Below, piece after piece: positions 3,518-57,351 of a stretch of 64,000 nt of DNA. The stretch lies in contig MOEB01000023.1 in the NCBI GenBank assembly GCA_001939945.1, positions 1 to 64,000 of the forward strand, written 5' to 3'. The notes beneath the pieces were generated by a model. The model worked only from the letters and a program-made list of their open reading frames with translations, had not been told where the DNA came from and ran no database searches. Position 1 is the stretch's first letter. Every line of letters begins with the position of its first letter. Source of the DNA: Aerophototrophica crusticola. GTDB taxonomy: Bacteria > Pseudomonadota > Alphaproteobacteria > Azospirillales > Azospirillaceae. The position numbers and the translations under genes are program-made.

Positions 3518-3660
3518 GGTGACATAAGGAGACCTTAAGGTGACCAAAGGTGACGCTTAAGGTGACGCGTGTCACATCCCAAGTGATTGGGATGGTTGGG
3601 GAAAACGGCTTAAGGAGACAAAGGTGACCGGGGTCGGTTCATGTCACCTTAAGGGCCGGT
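3518..3660. repeat. Clustered AAGGTGAC/AAGGAGAC direct repeats
   Basis: Immediately after the DUF2243 stop, units AAGGWGAC recur at least five times in the same orientation, with one inverted unit (GTCACCTT) near 3646. The two blocks are separated by a GC-rich 60-base spacer. No open frame with good codon bias covers it. The bases from 3661 to about 3890 hold no feature I can support; a short minus-strand frame there has no ribosome site or recognisable product. Confidence 0.6.
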
Positions 3661-3893: not shown

Positions 3894-4086
3894 AGGTGTG
3901 TGGGGAAAACGGATTTGAACGGATCAGAACGGATTGTAACGGATAGAGTTAATGCTCAGAATACATTCTTCTATTATTGAACAATACTTATCAATCCAGA
4001 ATATTCAGAAATGAGCATTCGTTATTATTCAATAGTATCCGTTCAATCCGTTTTGATCCGTTAAAATCCGTTTTCCAAACACACCT
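3894..4086. repeat. Long inverted repeat with AACGGAT tandem arms
   Basis: Two arms of about 51 bases are imperfect inverted repeats. Each begins AGGTGTGT, then GGAAAACGGAT, then carries four AACGGAT-type units about 10 bases apart. They enclose an AT-rich centre (about 3946-4035) that itself holds shorter inverted repeats (AATGCTCA/TGAGCATT and CTATTATTGA/TATTCAATAG). It lies 34 bases beyond the alkB stop, in the convergent space between DUF2243 and alkB. It has the same architecture, with different arm sequence, as the CACGGA-type repeats elsewhere in the window. Confidence 0.8.
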
Positions 4087-4119: not shown

Positions 4120-4797
4120 CTAAGCTGTTGATCCAAAAGCTTGTTGGAATTGTGTGAATGCACAAGCTCCCTGGGGAGAGGGGACGGGAGGCGTCACCCT
4201 TCGCAACGTCAGGTTCACCCGCCCACCGCCGGGGACCAGGGTGCTGCTGCCGGGCAGGATGCGGTCGATGCCGTGGTAGGCGTGGCGAGCGGGGCCGGAG
4301 AACAGCATGACGGTGCCGCTGGACACGGTGAAGCTGCGTGTGGGGTCCTTGCGGGTGGCGCCGCCCAGGCGGAAGATCGCCGTGTCGCCGAGGGAGACGT
4401 TCAGGATGGGGGCGTCGGGGTCCTGCTCATCCTCATCCCGATGCAGGCCCAGCTTGGCGGCGGGGCCGCGGTAGAGGTTGACGAGGCAGCATTCAGGGTC
4501 GGCGCGGTAGCCCGCCACCTCCCGCCAGAGGGACAGGAGCGGGTCCGGGATGGGCGGCCAGGGCTGGCCGGTCTTCAGGTGGGTGGGGCTGTAGCGGTAG
4601 CCGGACTTGTCTGCCACCCAGCCCAGGGGGCCGGCGTTGGTCATGTCGATGGAGAAGGGGCGGCCGGAGCCCGGCATGACATAGCGGTCGAAGGGGGCGA
4701 CGGCGGTGATGTCGTCCACCAATGAGAGGAGTTGCGCCTGCGCGGCGCGGTCGAGGTGGTCCGGCAGCAGGGTGAAGCCGTCGATGCCGGTGCGCAT
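4120..4797 (-). CDS. alkB: Alkylated-DNA repair dioxygenase AlkB
   Basis: This 225-residue Fe(II)/2-oxoglutarate dioxygenase should oxidatively demethylate 1-methyladenine and 3-methylcytosine in DNA or RNA. The metal ligands are visible as H119 and D121 (LHRDEDE) and H175 (HAYHG), with the same 56-residue H-to-H spacing as E. coli AlkB. The NLYR motif before the HxD and the C-terminal R-x5-R (near 193 and 199) match the 2-oxoglutarate-binding residues. MPGSGRPFSI and GYRYSPTH match the nucleotide-recognition lid. No Ada or AlkA gene adjoins it. The N-terminus begins close to the expected length. Confidence 0.93.
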   Translation of the reverse strand: MRTGIDGFTLLPDHLDRAAQAQLLSLVDDITAVAPFDRYVMPGSGRPFSIDMTNAGPLGWVADKSGYRYSPTHLKTGQPWPPIPDPLLSLWREVAGYRADPECCLVNLYRGPAAKLGLHRDEDEQDPDAPILNVSLGDTAIFRLGGATRKDPTRSFTVSSGTVMLFSGPARHAYHGIDRILPGSSTLVPGGGRVNLTLRRVTPPVPSPQGACAFTQFQQAFGSTA

Positions 4798-4913: not shown

Positions 4914-5010
4914 CCTCCCCTGCGAAAGCAGGGGTCCACGGTTTTTGACCCGATATTCAGCGTTACTGTGGTTAAAGAACTGTGGGCCCCTGCTTTCGCA
5001 GGGGAAACAG
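4914..5010. repeat. Dispersed double-hairpin repeat, copy 2
   Basis: This is the second subtype: the terminal hairpins read CCCCTGCGAAAGCAGGGG instead of CCCCCGCGAAGGCGGGGG, so both stem sides have changed together. It lies between two minus-strand genes (the PH-like membrane protein and alkB), 76 bases beyond the former's stop. Confidence 0.85.
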
Positions 5011-9705: not shown

Positions 9706-9721
9706 CCTGCCGTCGTGCCAA

Positions 9722-9870
9722 GGGACACGGATGACGCGGATGGTGTCCGGATGACCACGGATAGGGAACCGGACTGCGCGCCTGCGGCGCGCGGATGATG
9801 CTTGGTTTGGTGCGACGCTGGCCATTGCCATCCCCGGACATCCGGAACACATCCGTGTCATCCGTGTCCC
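9722..9870. repeat. Long inverted repeat with CACGGATGA arms
   Basis: The left arm (9722-9766) and right arm (9837-9870) match as inverted repeats over about 34 bases, both holding GGACACGGATGAC and TCCGGATG units. The centre contains the GC palindrome GCGCGCCTGCGGCGCGC next to GATGATG. It begins 17 bases after the diguanylate cyclase stop. Its arms closely resemble those at 56416-56571, so the two are a subfamily. Confidence 0.85.
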
Positions 9871-9952
9871 ATGGCCGCGACGCCTGGGAAGGCTGGACAA
9901 ACCCACCGGACCACCCCAGTTTCCCCGCCCCAGTCCCCTGACAGGACCCGCC

Positions 9953-12850: not shown

Positions 12851-12895
12851 ACAGGCGATGGTTGCATGGGTGGGATGAGGGGGGTGGGGGGCCGC

Positions 12896-13074
12896 TTTTT
12901 CACGGACGGCACGGACACGCCACGGACGACACGGACAAAAAAAGGAAAGGGGAATGATGCCTGCGGCGCAACAAGGGCGCGCCGCAGGCGCAGTAAGCGT
13001 CAGTTCGGCAGATCGGCGTTTGGGCTTGGGCACCGTCCGTGTTGTCCGTGGAGTGTCCGTGTCGTCCGTGCAAA
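12896..13074. repeat. Long inverted repeat with CACGGAC arms and GCCTGCGGCGC core
   Basis: The left arm (12896-12936) and right arm (13035-13074) are inverted repeats over about 40 bases, each made of four CACGGAC-type units in the same order. The centre contains GATGCCTGCGGCGCAAC, a core also found at 17733 and, inverted, at 56505-56525. The outer edge is 29 bases beyond the phnC stop. Confidence 0.88.
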
Positions 13075-13102: not shown

Positions 13103-13876
13103 CTAAATCACCCCGACCACGCTCGCCACCGGCAACTCCCGCCCGCCGAACAGGGTCCGCAACCGGTCGGGGGTGACGGCGGCGGGGGGAAGGTCGAAGG
13201 CGATGCGGCCGGCGGACAGGCCCAGCACACGGTCGGCGAAGGCCAGGGCCTGGTCCACCTGGTGCAGGCTGACCAGCACGGCGAGGCCCCGTTCCGCCGC
13301 CAGTTCCCGCAGCAGGGCCATGACGCCGCTCGCCGTCTCCGGGTCCAGGCTGGCCACGGGTTCGTCCGCCAGCAGCAGGGCCGCGTCCTGCACCAGGGCC
13401 CGGGCAAGGGCCACTCGCTGCTGCTGCCCGCCGGACAGCCGGTCGGCCCGGGCATAGGCCTTGTCCAGCAGGCCCACCCGGTCCAGGGCGCCCAGGGCCG
13501 CCTGCCGGTCCGCGTCGGGGAAGCGGCGCAGGGCCGCCCGCCACAGGGGGATGGTGTGCAGCCGCCCGGCCAGGACGTTGTCCAGGGCCGACAGGCGGCG
13601 CAGCAGGTTGAACTGCTGGTAGACCAGGGCCACCCGCCGCCGCGCCTGGGCCAGCGGCCTGCCGGCCAGCGCCGTCAGCTCCGCCCGGTCCACGGTCACC
13701 CGGCCGCCATCCGGCGCGTCAAGCCCGGCGACGCAGCGGAACAGGGTGGTCTTGCCGGCCCCGCTGGGCCCCAGCAGGGCCACCACCTCCCCCGGGCGGA
13801 CGGCCAGGTCCACCCCGGACAGGACGGGCCGGCCGCCGCGGGCCTTGTGCAGGGCATGGACGGACAGGCCGCTCAT
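13103..13876 (-). CDS. phnC: Phosphonate ABC transporter ATP-binding protein PhnC
   Basis: This 257-residue ABC ATPase energises uptake of phosphonate or a related phosphorus oxyanion. Walker A is GPSGAGKTT near residue 37, the Q-loop follows in LVYQQFNLL, the signature is LSGGQQQR near 147, Walker B LLLADEP near 166, and the H-loop LVSLHQVD near 200. Spacing and the QQFNLLRRLSALDNVL motif are typical of PhnC. The ATG at 13876 overlaps the phnE stop as ATGA. No C-P lyase or phosphonatase gene is adjacent. Confidence 0.88.
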   Translation of the reverse strand: MSGLSVHALHKARGGRPVLSGVDLAVRPGEVVALLGPSGAGKTTLFRCVAGLDAPDGGRVTVDRAELTALAGRPLAQARRRVALVYQQFNLLRRLSALDNVLAGRLHTIPLWRAALRRFPDADRQAALGALDRVGLLDKAYARADRLSGGQQQRVALARALVQDAALLLADEPVASLDPETASGVMALLRELAAERGLAVLVSLHQVDQALAFADRVLGLSAGRIAFDLPPAAVTPDRLRTLFGGRELPVASVVGVI

Positions 13877-14679: not shown

Positions 14680-14783
14680 GGGGTCGGCTTCAAGGGATGT
14701 GGGGCGTCGGCAAGATTGACCGTTTTCCCGGCGAAGGACTCTGGGCGCTGAATCAAGGACGAATCCTCGTGACAGGCACGACT

Positions 14784-14880
14784 GCTTCCCCCGCGGAGGC
14801 GGGGGCCCACGGTTCTTGACCCGGCTTGCCCCGTCCATGTCGTTGAAAAACAGTGGACCCCCGCCTTCGCGGGGGAAACA
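14784..14880. repeat. Dispersed double-hairpin repeat, copy 3 (inside phn operon)
   Basis: CCCCCGCGGAGGCGGGGG and CCCCCGCCTTCGCGGGGG hairpins bound a spacer of about 50 bases; GGCCCAC and GTGGAC blocks flank the hairpins. It lies between phnD and phnE, 91 bases beyond the phnD stop, and could lower permease/ATPase expression relative to the binding protein. Confidence 0.85.
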
Positions 14881-16894: not shown

Positions 16895-17632
16895 ATGGAT
16901 GCGCGGGCCTGCCGCCTCAGCAGCCTGGACCTGGCGAAGGGACTGGCCATCACCCTGATGGTGGTGGACCATGTGGGCAACTTCCTGTTCCCGGAGGCGG
17001 AATGGCTGCGCGTGCTGGGGCGCGGGGCCTTCCCCATCTTCGCCTTCCTGGCCGGGTTCCTGCCGGCCCGGGCGTTTCCATGGCGCATCCTGGTCGCCGG
17101 CCTTGTGTTGCAGCCCGTGCTGGGGGTGCTGGACGGCTGGTGGCTGCCCTTCAACGTGCTGGTGCCGCTGGCCCTGTGGCGGGCGCTGCTGTCCCAGCCG
17201 CAGGCAGAGGCTTTCCTGGCGGACACGTCGCGGCTGGTGCCCCTGGCGGTCGTCTGCCTGGTTCTGGCCCCCGTCACCGGGGCGGTGCTGGAGTATGGCA
17301 CGGCGGGCCTGATGTTCGGCGCCCTGGGCGTGGCCTGCCGGCAGGGGCGCCGGACGGAGCCGGGGACGCTGATGGGCCTGGTGGTGGCCCTGGCCGGCCA
17401 TATGGTGCTGCAGGCCACCGGCTTCGGCCTGGGCTGGGCAGGTGCCCTGGCCGTGCTGGCCGTGCTGCTGCCCGTCATGGTGATGCTGGCCAGCCTGGAG
17501 CGGCGCTGCGTGGAGACCACCCTGCCGGGGGTGATCCTGGCCCCCATCCGCCTGCTGGCCCGGCACAGCCTGTGGGTCTATGCGGTACATCTGCCGATGC
17601 TGATGGTGGTGCGGGACTGGCTGGGGCCTTGA
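16895..17632 (+). CDS. TraX-like polytopic membrane protein
   Basis: This 245-residue protein has seven to eight hydrophobic segments. The N-terminal motif SLDLAKGLAITLMVVDHVGN followed by FLFP and RGAFPIFAFLAGF matches the TraX family, integral membrane acetyltransferases named after F-pilin acetylation. Chromosomal relatives modify unknown substrates. No conjugation genes lie nearby. The ATG at 16895 has the ribosome site GGAAGGAG; the open frame upstream overlaps the phosphoesterase end and is unlikely to be used. Confidence 0.75.
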   Translation: MDARACRLSSLDLAKGLAITLMVVDHVGNFLFPEAEWLRVLGRGAFPIFAFLAGFLPARAFPWRILVAGLVLQPVLGVLDGWWLPFNVLVPLALWRALLSQPQAEAFLADTSRLVPLAVVCLVLAPVTGAVLEYGTAGLMFGALGVACRQGRRTEPGTLMGLVVALAGHMVLQATGFGLGWAGALAVLAVLLPVMVMLASLERRCVETTLPGVILAPIRLLARHSLWVYAVHLPMLMVVRDWLGP

Positions 17633-17647: not shown

Positions 17648-17804
17648 ATTTTTCACGGACAGGCACGGACGTTCCACGGACGGACACGGACCGGACCTTT
17701 CACGGCAAGTCTTGTCAGCAATCTTTCGGGGGGGATGCCTGCGGCGCGAGGTTGGCCGGCGGCAAGGTCCGTGTCCGTCCGTGGCGTGTCCGTGCCGTCC
17801 GTGC
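17648..17804. repeat. Long inverted repeat with CACGGAC arms and GCCTGCGGCGC core
   Basis: The left arm (17648-17695) and right arm (17766-17804) hold CACGGACAGGCACGGACG-type units in inverted orientation. The centre has GGGATGCCTGCGGCGCGAGG, the same core as at 12957. It begins 16 bases after the TraX-like stop. Confidence 0.88.
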
Positions 17805-37469: not shown

Positions 37470-37580
37470 GGGGACGGCGGATGGAACGGCTGCGGCATCC
37501 TTGCCTGGTGAAGTCCCAGCCCCCGCGTCGGGGATGGGAAGAGCCTGACCATCGCTTTGCCGCATCCGCCACCCTTTCCG

Positions 37581-37674
37581 CTTCCCCCGCGAAGGCGGGG
37601 GTCCACAGTTCCTTTGCGACGGTGGGGGCGGCGAACGGGTCAAAAACCGTGGGCCCCCGCCTTCGCGGGGGACG
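37581..37674. repeat. Dispersed double-hairpin repeat, copy 4 (inside puh superoperon)
   Basis: CCCCCGCGAAGGCGGGGG and CCCCCGCCTTCGCGGGGG hairpins bound a spacer of about 55 bases; GTCCACAGTT and its near-complement are the inner blocks. It lies between acsF and puhE, 112 bases after the acsF stop, in the only sizeable gap of the superoperon. Confidence 0.85.
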
Positions 37675-37737
37675 CGGGGTCTTTTGTGACATGCGTTGTG
37701 CGCCCCGGCAGCCGTGCCGGGTGGTGGGTGCCGCGCC

Positions 37738-41520: not shown

Positions 41521-41736
41521 ATTTTACACGGACGACACGGACCCCGCTTCGCGGGGACACGGACAAGCACGGACGGGGTGCGGCCTTCACTGGTTGTGTG
41601 CTTCCCCGGCGGGCCTGCCAAAGATGATTGCGCCGAAGGCGCGGTAAAGCCAAAAAGGCGCGAGCGCCCGTGACAGGCCATCGTCCGTGCCTGTCCGTGT
41701 CGCCGACGAAGTCGGCGTCCGTGTCGTCCGTGTCAA
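41521..41736. repeat. Long inverted repeat with CACGGAC arms and paired small hairpins
   Basis: The left arm (41521-41578) and right arm (41682-41736) are inverted repeats of GACACGGAC units. At matching places each arm carries a small extra hairpin: CCCCGCTTCGCGGGG on the left and CGCCGACGAAGTCGGCG on the right, different stems but the same CTTCG-type apex. The centre holds GATGATTGCGCCGAAGGCGC and GGTAAAG. It begins 47 bases after the fnr stop; the remaining bases to thrS hold nothing else I can name. Confidence 0.87.
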
Positions 41737-41875
41737 ACCGCACCGACGCCCGGCCGATGCATCCGCCACCCCCCATGCCCAAACCGCCCATCTCCCGCGC
41801 TTGCCCGCGCGCTTGACAGGGGGCATGCCGGTTCCCAAAGTCGCCGCCTGTTCCTGAAGCACCAAGAGGATCGCC

Positions 41876-44601: not shown

Positions 44602-45133
44602 CGGATGTCAGCCCGGGCTTGACCCGGGCACTTCGGGAAAGCGGGCATGCCAAGGGGCGGCAGGGGGCCTCCCCTTGGGTGCTGGTGCTGTGGCCAGCGG
44701 GTCTATTGAACGCAGAGGACACGGATGGCCGCAGAGGACGCAGAGAGGTCTGGACTTACTGGAACAGTGATGACGGTGATGGCCAGGGATGACGGTGATG
44801 GGATGGGCCTGGGGTGAGGTTTGGGCCTGAATTGGCGGTTGGTTTTGTTGGCGCCTTTGGCGCCGGTAAAGTGGGGGGGCGTTGGGCCCAACGGCGCCGC
44901 TGCGCCAACCCCTCCGTGTCCTCTGCGGCCATCTGCGTCCTCTGCGTTCCCAAATCAAAGCTGGCCACAGGCGCGGAGGAGCGGGGGTGGGGATGCATCA
45001 CTGTCATCCCTGGCCATCATTGTCATCACTGTTCCGGTAAGTGACCCTCGGTGCAGGGGGCCGGCGGGTGGGCTTTCGGTGATTGGCACGACGCGATCCC
45101 GAGGGCCCCGGGTCAAGCCCGGGGTGACGTCCG
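44602..45133. repeat. Compound inverted-repeat structure
   Basis: There are three pairs of inverted repeats. The outer pair (44602-44637 and 45098-45133) is 36 bases with the core CCCGGGCTTGACCCGGG. Pair A (44707-44748 and 44910-44949) is made of GCAGAGGAC and CACGGATGGCC units. Pair B (44754-44803 and 44996-45044) is made of CAGTGATGACGGTGATGG and CCAGGGATGAC units. A and B are interlocked (A-B-A'-B'), not nested. The centre has GCGCCTTTGGCGCCGGTAAAG. No coding frame is convincing across 44516-45203. Confidence 0.82.
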
Positions 45134-45666: not shown

Positions 45667-46764
45667 ATGAAGCCGACCCTTTTCGCGCTGGCCGCCCTGC
45701 TGGCCGCGCCCGCCCTGCTTGCCGATACCGCCGCCGCCCGGGCACGGGACGGCCACGACGCCCATGCCGGGCACGCCCCGGCCCCCGCTGCCGCCAAGGC
45801 CCCCATTCCCTATGCCGCCGAGTGGGCGGAGGGAATGGACGCCATGCACCGGGAGATGGACATCCGCCTGTCCGGCGACGCCGACCTGGATTTCCTGCTG
45901 GGCATGATGCCCCACCACCAGGGCGCCATCGCCATGGCCGAACTGGCCCTGAAACATGCCAAGGACCCGCTGGTCCTGACCCTGGCCCGGTCCATCCTGT
46001 GGGACCAGACCAAGGAGATCGAGGACATGGAGACCCTGGTGGTCCGCCGCCAGCTCGGCGCCTGGCCCGCCGTGGCGGAGGCCGCCCGCAAGCCCGCCCC
46101 CACGGGCGGGCACGGGACGCACGGGGCCGGCATGCACCATGCCGGCCACCCGGGCGCCGACGCCAACTCCGGCGACCACCACGCCATGCACCATGGCTCA
46201 GACACCGACCACGCCAAGCACCACGCCGCCCACCACGGCAGTGACGCCGACCATGCCAAGCACCACGCGGCACACCACGGCAGTGACGCCGGCCATGCCA
46301 AGCACCACGCCGCCCACCACGGCTCCGACACCGACCATGCCAAGCACCACGCGGCGCAGCACGGTTCCGGCGGCGGCCATGCCATGCAGCATGGCGGCGC
46401 GGGGAAGGGCGAAGGGCATGGGGGCCACCATGCCCAGCCCCAGGGTGGCCATGCCGGCCACGCGGGCCATGCCGGCGGCCCCATGATGGCGCCCGCGGCG
46501 GACGGTCCGGCCTACAAGGCGGAATGGGACAAGGCCATGGCACAGATGCACGGCGCCATGGACATCACCCTGACCGGCAACCCGGACGTGGATTTCCTGC
46601 GCGGCATGATCCCCCACCACCAGGGCGCCCTGGACATGGCGGACGTGGCCCTGGCCTATGGCGACGACCCCTTCGTCCAGGACATGGCGCGCGAAGTCAT
46701 CATCGCCCAGACCTGGGAAATCGACCACATGCGCAAGCTGCTGAAGCGGCTGGGTGACCAGTAG
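45667..46764 (+). CDS. Exported tandem DUF305 protein with His-rich repeat linker
   Basis: This 365-residue protein has a signal peptide (residues 1-24) and two DUF305 domains (about 49-135 and 276-362), each with the MMPHHQGAIAMAEL / MIPHHQGALDMADV signature and a later W-x-x-E/EIDHMRKL helix. Between them, residues 175-230 are four exact-length 14-residue repeats HHGSDTDHAKHHAA and a degenerate fifth, then more His/Gly. DUF305 proteins are associated with copper handling. The ATG has a GAGGGG ribosome site. Confidence 0.88.
   Translation: MKPTLFALAALLAAPALLADTAAARARDGHDAHAGHAPAPAAAKAPIPYAAEWAEGMDAMHREMDIRLSGDADLDFLLGMMPHHQGAIAMAELALKHAKDPLVLTLARSILWDQTKEIEDMETLVVRRQLGAWPAVAEAARKPAPTGGHGTHGAGMHHAGHPGADANSGDHHAMHHGSDTDHAKHHAAHHGSDADHAKHHAAHHGSDAGHAKHHAAHHGSDTDHAKHHAAQHGSGGGHAMQHGGAGKGEGHGGHHAQPQGGHAGHAGHAGGPMMAPAADGPAYKAEWDKAMAQMHGAMDITLTGNPDVDFLRGMIPHHQGALDMADVALAYGDDPFVQDMAREVIIAQTWEIDHMRKLLKRLGDQ
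46189..46356 (+). repeat. Four 42-bp tandem coding repeats in the DUF305 gene
   Basis: Four in-frame 42-base units encode HHGSDxxHAKHHAA. Variation is confined to the two residues after Asp and to silent positions, so copy number could change by slippage or recombination. Confidence 0.9.
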
Positions 46765-56415: not shown

Positions 56416-56571
56416 GGGACACGGATGAACGGGATGGTGTCCGGATGTACGCGGATGTGGGCGTGCCACGGGACATGTCGCGGGAGATAACTAGAAGCGA
56501 TCATCGCGGCTGCGCCGCAGGCATCAATCCTTATCCGTGATCATCCGGAATGATCCCGTTCATCCGTGTCC
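56416..56571. repeat. Long inverted repeat with CACGGATGA arms
   Basis: The left arm (56416-56459) and right arm (56531-56571) share GGACACGGATGAACGGGAT and a CCGGATG unit in inverted order. The centre contains GCTGCGCCGCAGGCATC, the inverse of the GATGCCTGCGGCGC core at 12957 and 17733. It fills the convergent mtnA-coq7 gap. It belongs with the copy at 9722. Confidence 0.87.
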
Positions 56572-56598
56572 AAAGAACATCCGCACCCGCACCACCCC

Positions 56599-57108: not shown

Positions 57109-57253
57109 GTCTCTCCTCCCGTCGTCCTGGGCTGATGAACCTGAGGGGGATCGGGCCGGCGGCAAGGGGCAGGGTGACGCGGGGGGTGATCCCCAGCTTC
57201 ACCCACGCAGTCGCATCAGCGTTGGTAAAGCTCCACGCTCCCACCCTTACTGC

Positions 57254-57351
57254 CTCCCCTGCGAAAGCAGGGGTCCACAGTTCTTTTACTGGGCTGACGT
57301 TGGACGGCGGCTCAAAAACCGTGGGGCCCCTGCTTTCGCAGGGGAGGCGGT
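57254..57351. repeat. Dispersed double-hairpin repeat, copy 5
   Basis: This is the CCCCTGCGAAAGCAGGGG subtype, as at 4914, with GTCCACAGTTCTTTT and a partner GGGGCC block. It lies between idi and coq7 (both minus strand), 79 bases past the idi stop. The rest of the 321-base gap holds no other feature I can support. Confidence 0.85.

Follow-up and report, generated by a model that had tools for sequence, protein, structure and literature searches.

What are the long inverted repeats, with arms made of short tandem units, that lie between genes of Aerophototrophica crusticola? The question is raised by positions 12,896 to 13,074 of contig MOEB01000023.1. The window (the first 64,000 nucleotides of this contig, the whole stretch that was analysed) contains seven such elements, and all of them were verified at the positions claimed for them in a preliminary description made from the letters alone. 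We consider it probable that these palindromes are gene-less members of a mobile class, similar to miniature inverted-repeat transposable elements (MITEs), the full form of which is a GxxExxY gene placed within inverted unit arms.

The element at 12897..13074 (no strand assigned) carries no gene and has four CACGGAC units in each of its arms (12897-12936/13035-13074, 90% complementary), with left-arm spacers of 2, 4 and 2 nt and a core hairpin that includes GATGCCTGCGGCGC. The doubled arm word, CACGGACNNCACGGAC, was matched 39+39 times across the genome (6.06 Mb) and its reversed pattern 0+0 times, which is more than chance would give. In ten genus mates it was found once in each of two genomes and in none of the other eight, making it abundant in just one of eleven genus genomes. 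Copies in the own genome were read over 1.46 Mb, comprising the window, 800 kb of contig C1 chosen regardless of matches, and 32 stretches mostly centred on matches. The arms had been described as loose runs of units; the units are present, but there are mostly four per arm and they are spaced ~9-11 nt apart. In the simple CACGGAC form, spacers of 2-3, 4-5 and 2-3 nt separate the units, followed by a core and then by the mirror image. When one arm held three or more exact units, the number in the opposite arm was four in 36 of 61 cases and three in another 14 (many elements were scored from both sides). Five cases gave zero: two views of a gene-bearing copy, whose second arm lay outside the search range, and three views of two inside-out copies. 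In a second form, type B, a small hairpin separates units 2 and 3, and 17 of 23 inserts found by pattern had a stem of at least 4 bp, compared to 12% of shuffles; the 23 inserts showed 16 distinct best stems, with a loop that is mostly TTC or TGC. Closed reading frames in 31 gene-less CACGGAC spans, which were trimmed by pattern, reached 45 codons at most. Two further arrangements were observed. Two CACGGAC elements of the genome harbour, close to their centres, another element that has ACACGAAT units and ends in GCCTACGGCGT (L106, 9901-10305; L112, 10825-11152), and in the inside-out copies (L113, 9229-9398; L129, 10577-10707) GTCCGTG units precede the CACGGAC units.

Repeats of this kind often adjoin GxxExxY genes, which served as a lead and is not used here as evidence. 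A search of the own genome with PF13366 identified three GxxExxY genes. One (L031) lies between CACGGAC arms and another (L032, C1:64681-65019) between AACGGAT arms, and both words are those of gene-less families in the window; the AACGGAT unit matches the gene-less element at 3894..4086 (no strand assigned), which has four such units per arm (3894-3936/4044-4086, 91% complementary). Terminal inverted repeats are thus shared with a gene-bearing relative, as in MITEs. The different arm sequences noted under one plan are accounted for by many related elements, each with its particular unit word.

Both bracketed genes match PF13366, and L031 also matches TIGR04256; the protein is a predicted PD-(D/E)XK nuclease with a nuclease-like fold. 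The nuclease residues are conserved, and purifying selection was detected in two pairs. A sequence search of the PDB gave a single weak match (E 0.32), and PADLOC gave weak matches alone (E 5.5e-4, and 7.1e-4 to Cas4); this nuclease fold is common to Cas4 and Holliday junction resolvases. Among 72,556 plasmid records, seven held a relative of L031 at E 1e-5. Beside the third gene (L033, 1240-1851) stands an arrayed element, the core of which carries the hairpin GCCTGCGGCGC known from other families; as judged by eye, the core seems to be common to different unit families.

To assess bracketing, the 350-bp flanks of each gene were aligned to each other in inverted orientation (threshold score of at least 15), with flanks 390 bp further out as a distal control. 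In a phylum sample of 33 PF13366 loci (the three own genes and the best match from each of 30 genomes), inverted arms were found at 23 of 32 usable loci, compared to one distal case. For ParE genes (PF05016, 30 fetched), arms were found at one of 25 usable loci, with one distal case. A scan of named genomes with one GxxExxY alignment, A2, which represents a single subfamily, in a collection holding one genome per species, returned at least 575 relatives. The best 80 were analysed, five of which were too close to a contig end. Arms bracketed 60 of the 75 usable loci compared to 1 of 72 distal controls, and 32 of 370 mismatched pairs of arms from different loci reached the threshold. According to record titles, the armed loci among these best 80 come from at least ten phyla: alpha-, beta-, gamma-, delta- and zetaproteobacteria, Acidobacteria, Planctomycetes, Verrucomicrobia, Bacteroidetes, Ignavibacteria, Spirochaetota, Chloroflexota, Cyanobacteria, Gemmatimonadetes and a Methanosarcinales archaeon. 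Since almost all of these records come from metagenome bins, individual placements may err.

Those left arms of GxxExxY loci that show a clear best period (at least 60% match; 30 of 79 arms) repeat at 8-10 nt. The unit word has the general form CRCNRAG, and agreement between both arms of an element at the variable letters is 0.94, 0.76 and 0.96, compared to 0.53, 0.40 and 0.52 on permutation (143 units, 54 elements), figures that are inflated because the loci were chosen for arm similarity. Nearest protein neighbours share the last letter of the unit in 79 of 94 cases (67 permuted, maximum 78), and for positions 2, 4 and 5 the counts of 53, 55 and 48 fall inside the permutation range. The link is weak, and the idea that the GxxExxY protein strictly recognises the unit word was rejected.

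Unit arrays were then counted in 249 genomes of the phylum. An excess of CRCRRAGNNCRCRRAG over the reversed control of at least 10 was found in 28 of 47 PF13366-positive genomes and in 7 of 202 negative ones. The medians were 15 and -1, or 20 (39 genomes) and 0 (24 genomes) when restricted to family f25. Apart from the f25 split these statistics are uncorrected for kinship, and the bracketed genes themselves contribute arrays. Eleven PF13366-positive genomes had an excess of 2 or less, and the pattern misses other words, among them CACGGAC and AACGGAT. Four of the seven array-rich negative genomes were searched again: G037 (53 against 2 in the control), G005 (32 against 0), G156 and G108. Sixteen loci taken from them are short inverted pairs with no obvious gene, and G156 also has other repeats. 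Three of the loci from G037, a genome with no PF13366 match, are gene-less CACAGAG palindromes (L324, L340, L352), and two of these, L340 and L352, additionally have ~60 bp of flank in common.

A gene unrelated to GxxExxY was found in arms of the same plan. At PF05635 loci (23S_rRNA_IVP, a four-helix bundle; 30 fetched), inverted arms were present at 17 of 27 usable loci and at no distal control, although one of the 17 arm pairs (L164) resembles coding sequence rather than arms. Those left arms that show a clear best period (15 of 16) repeat at 7 or 14 nt. The tandem-unit score, limited to a spacing of 8-12 nt, detected none of the 27 loci, and the periods were measured separately. At loci L144-L173, 23S_rRNA_IVP genes thus often lie between inverted arms of 7-nt units, as a class parallel to the GxxExxY elements. 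The own genome gave no PF05635 match in a search whose controls were also silent; the model matched 43 of the 249 phylum genomes.

Insertion was examined in two other genera, by comparing orthologous sites between relatives. The genus mates of the window copies, mostly 70-80% identical in alignable DNA, are too diverged for an empty-site comparison. For a four-helix-bundle element located between protein genes (L148), 61 genus genomes were compared, of which 18, including the query's own, align across the site. Among 20 other genomes, ten are empty (44-49 bp between the anchors) and eight possess both the gene and its arms (471-576 bp). A gene-less element built from another unit (165 bp) was seen in one genome, and an internally deleted gene (337 bp) in one more (G272). 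The numbers of exact units range from 2 to 11 on the left and from 3 to 15 on the right. In G272 all nine left and ten right units are spaced at 8 nt, compared to 7 nt in the gene-bearing copies; the arms may have changed in place, or an element with an 8-nt word may have arrived separately, and either would fit. In eight of ten filled copies with a readable frame, the upstream frame terminates at a TAG in the unit array, whereas at the ten empty sites it ends at its own TGA or TAA.

The second site harbours a GxxExxY element (L053), and 14 of 23 genus genomes were read there. The gene is full in G025 and nearly full in G017 (PF13366 match 17-116), in which it is probably frameshifted near the start. 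Large deletions were found in G048, G160 and G184, short forms with a gene remnant in G124, G132, G040 and G206, and no element was seen in G009, G021, G112, G044 and G313. A CGCAGAG-type word occupies the arms of G124 and G132 and the left arm of G040, the two arms of which are unlike each other, while the arms of G206 are degenerate; here, too, the words may have changed in place or a second element may have arrived. In G025 the stop (TAA) of the adjacent gene falls within an element arm. These sites, with their deleted-gene copies, show insertion and decay to gene-less forms, and the element's own unit array sometimes provides the stop of the neighbouring gene.

Placement was analysed with a home-made gene caller for 44 elements of the own genome, excluding two more that lie inside predicted genes. 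Twenty-nine are in tandem, 12 in convergent and 3 in divergent gaps (22-26% expected; p 0.006 and 0.001). The median distance to the nearest flanking stop is 32 bp, and 31 of 41 elements lie within 60 bp, compared to an expectation of 23.5% and a median of 176 bp for random placement. In tandem gaps the element is closer to the stop in 21 of 29 cases (p 0.024). The claim that the elements follow stop codons is supported statistically, with corrections for single window copies. For the element at 12896, the plus-strand open reading frame that stops at 12878 lacks a Pfam match and overlaps a GNAT gene; the supported stop nearby is the minus-strand one of an ABC-transporter gene at 13103, 29 bp from the element. 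For the element at 3894, the nearest supported stop is that of a minus-strand 2OG-Fe(II) oxygenase gene at 4120.

Pairing of the arms in RNA would be expected to leave a wobble signature. On the gene-sense strand, the arm mismatches of 83 GxxExxY elements comprised 89 G-U and 97 A-C pairs, and those of 19 own-genome elements 27 G-U and 24 A-C pairs, with no wobble preference in either set. Pairing of GxxExxY arms at the RNA level was thus rejected, and the missing signature favours recognition or copying at the DNA level. The 20 four-helix-bundle elements showed an opposite, unexplained bias (8 G-U and 24 A-C, p 0.007). Folding of single-stranded DNA gave z values of -6.8 (9722-9870), -5.9 (17658-17804) and -4.7 (56422-56571) for three nearly whole elements, and -1.8 for a fourth stretch that ended early at the second arm.

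These data suggest the following scheme. The full form, ~0.45 kb, would consist of a GxxExxY gene (TIGR04256/PF13366) flanked by two inverted arms, each with three to four tandem units of ~7 conserved letters plus a few spacer letters, of the type CRCNRAG (here CACGGAC, AACGGAT and others). The protein may bind the unit arrays, which would offer eight sites here, roughly one per DNA turn, and may cut at or near the element ends or at the extruded hairpin. Gene-bearing and gene-less copies would have moved into gaps behind genes, where insertion is presumably tolerated. The likeness of the arms could be maintained through mutual copying, by fold-back synthesis or conversion, and this would be a possible route by which new unit words appear on both arms together. 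More broadly, and tentatively, the GxxExxY proteins, with their at least 575 relatives, could be the mobility enzymes of an unrecognised single-gene class that reads inverted word arrays; 23S_rRNA_IVP would define a parallel class with 7-nt words that includes the rRNA intervening sequences, and arms and words would renew themselves by mutual copying. Of the earlier interpretations, that of a mobile element is supported by relatives whose orthologous sites are either filled or empty, by nested copies, by the expansion in this one species of the genus and by gene-bearing copies with the same arms. Template copying would be compatible with a single site, at which both arms have 8-nt rather than 7-nt units, and convergent maintenance of unrelated sequences by one machinery is not needed, though the arm plan is common to GxxExxY and four-helix-bundle genes.

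Several observations weigh against this scheme. The presence of a four-helix-bundle gene in arms of the same plan means that the gene could be cargo. The third own GxxExxY gene, L033, adjoins an arrayed element but has no bracketing arms, and none of the three PF13366 genes of the own genome matches the GCAGAGG, CGGATG or CACGAAG family. Seven genomes are rich in arrays yet lack a PF13366 match, the link between unit letters and protein is loose, and no clear target-site duplication was visible by eye at the L148 site, where divergence hides the exact ends. That the GxxExxY nuclease itself drives the movement is inferred. The strongest competing explanation, which we regard as unlikely, is that both small genes are passengers captured in the loop and that the arms are mobilised in trans, for example by an HUH (Y1/RAYT-like) transposase acting on hairpins: two unrelated genes lie inside arms of identical plan, gene-less arrays are plentiful in some genomes without a PF13366 match, and REPtrons and TIRtrons combine HUH transposases with terminal inverted repeat (TIR) families (PMC3733652). 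Against it stand the abundance of arrays, which follows the presence of GxxExxY (28/47 against 7/202, kinship uncorrected), the conserved nuclease residues and the purifying selection on the gene in two pairs.

That the elements are RNA devices, either bidirectional terminators or stabilisers of mRNA 3' ends selectively kept behind genes, appears improbable. Their proximity to stops, their rarity in divergent gaps, the long stems (z -4.7 to -6.8) and the type B hairpins, which preserve stems despite sequence change (17/23 against 12% of shuffles), would all suit such a role, but G-U is not preferred over A-C (89 against 97; 27 against 24), the element is missing from many orthologous sites, and CACGGACNNCACGGAC is abundant in one genome of eleven in the genus. 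Least probable of all, in our estimate, is that the arms formed locally, through slippage during replication and template switching at hairpins, the elements being immobile and the bracketed genes incidental. The widely varying unit numbers at the L148 site (left 2-11, right 3-15) and the 8-nt units in both arms of G272 would agree with slippage; however, whole gene-bearing elements are present or absent at a single site, and two gene families, unlike ParE, are bracketed.

Among published ideas, REPtrons and TIRtrons come closest, described in the available part of PMC3733652 as RAYT or TIRYT tyrosine transposases with families of repetitive extragenic palindromes (REP) or TIRs. The likeness lies in one small gene within inverted repeats, gene-less relatives scattered between genes and several families per genome (PMC3733652). 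The gene here, however, encodes a predicted PD-(D/E)XK nuclease (or a four-helix bundle) and no HUH transposase, and the arms are runs of short units, while for some TIRs that part of the paper gives a GGGGWSAS motif and does not describe such runs. In the two gene-bearing copies of the own genome the gene between the repeats is GxxExxY and not HUH, with no wider HUH search made, and within 15 bp outside 26 CACGGAC elements a GTAG tag was found twice and a CGTC tag six times, compared to random averages of 1.5 and 7.0. There is a substantial chance that the GxxExxY elements are a class of their own.

Intervening sequences of 23S rRNA with an S23/IVP gene likewise carry a small gene in the loop between long inverted arms, and PF05635 is the same family as that found here in 7-nt-unit arms, but they sit inside 23S rRNA helices, unlike the L148 site between protein genes; their mobility is offered as a hypothesis in the part of that paper available (PMC4990558). 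MITEs, ERIC, Correia and RIME elements are also short, gene-less, inverted and intergenic, with lineage-specific expansion. They differ in that the arms here are tandem unit arrays, with a word that varies between families and matches within an element, and in that the putative full form bears GxxExxY and no known transposase. The TAACTGA heptamers of Beggiatoaceae form intergenic 7-nt runs, some of which cover the stop of the upstream gene, and mobility has been considered; they are direct repeats, mostly just upstream of start codons, with one inverted case, and the part of the paper available mentions no comparable associated gene (PMC4679880). Non-CRISPR regularly interspersed repeat arrays are linked to nucleases, one being an AddB-like PD-(D/E)XK nuclease/helicase, but they are CRISPR-like, with hypervariable spacers and expressed small RNAs, and have no inverted arms around a single small gene as far as the available part of the source goes (PMC10910872). 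No link between GxxExxY and such arms was found in the open-access literature searched: the association is not described in the available parts of PMC10910872 and PMC11270868, and the mention in that of PMC8934634 is incidental.

If correct, the proposed mobile class would provide GxxExxY and the four-helix bundle, two widespread families of small proteins, with a role, and would account for a type of intergenic repeat that is common in environmental genomes. Pairs of gene-bearing and gene-less palindromes would reach beyond HUH transposases to a nuclease fold, and the mobility of rRNA intervening sequences would become testable via their intergenic relatives.

The remaining window elements, none of which was assigned a strand, vary in units and core. 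The gene-less element at 9717..9875 has a GC hairpin core and arms (9717-9762/9830-9875, 83% complementary) with four units each of the CACGGAT/CGCGGAT/CCGGATG type, counted by eye; it begins 12 bp past the stop of a GGDEF gene (9705). At 17654..17803, 21 bp past a stop at 17632, a gene-less element has four CACGGAC units per arm (17662-17692/17766-17796, 90%) and a core that includes GATGCCTGCGGCGC. A type B element with CACGGAC arms occupies 41522..41737 (41522-41546/41713-41737, 92% complementary), with an extra hairpin between units 2 and 3 of each arm (left CCCGC-TTC-GCGGG, right GCCGAC-TTC-GTCGGC) and unit 1 located 52 bp past the stop of a Crp-family gene. The gene-less element at 56416..56571 (called at 56422-56583 by the inverted-cluster search) has CGGATG-type units and a core with the reverse complement of GATGCCTGCGGCGC, and begins 23 bp past the stop (56393) of an IF-2B-family gene. 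The stretch 44707-45044, described as one element with a single arm pair, is present but is a compound of two interleaved pairs, A-B-A'-B', at 44708..45042: the A arms (44708-44749/44908-44949, 88% complementary) are of the GCAGAGG type and the B arms (44754-44800/44996-45042, 91% complementary) of the GTGATGA type. Its first unit (44712) is 196 bp away from the nearest called stop. The interleaving is kept in a homologous copy at C1:59415-59752, and simultaneous pairing of both stems requires a pseudoknot.

Inverted 7-mer clusters numbered five in the window and zero in both the reversed and the complemented control, and 6-mer clusters ten compared to four and four. In the 800 kb of C1, the 7-mer test gave 7 compared to 4 and 1, and the blind 6-mer test gave 17 compared to 19 and 14, which is not significant and is probably explained by swamping by GC-rich coding noise. 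A search of the window with Rfam gave no matches at the gathering threshold, and several element flanks are protein genes with Pfam matches; insertion into rRNA genes, as in the 23S rRNA intervening sequences, is thus not seen here.

Other repeats were also identified. A second palindrome family of ~100 bp, TTCCCCCGC..GCGGGGG.CCACNGTT and close variants, occurs in the window at 2507-2604, 4916-5005, 14783-14880, 37578-37677 and 57249-57351, with more copies in several contigs. An outer inverted repeat, GTCAGCCCGGGCTTGACCCGGGC, encloses the compound element (44592-44638/45097-45143), with a similar case at C1:314061-314230. A 42-bp tandem repeat is present in four to five copies at window positions 46189-46388, and a ~130-bp dispersed repeat at ~3518-3650 has copies 78-96% identical in many contigs. 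Another dispersed inverted repeat, CGTCCCCTCCCCC..GGGGGAGGGACAGGGAGAGGGGT and variants, is found in C1 at 5423, 88856, 170494, 306061, 352783, 432830, 442396 and 575633.
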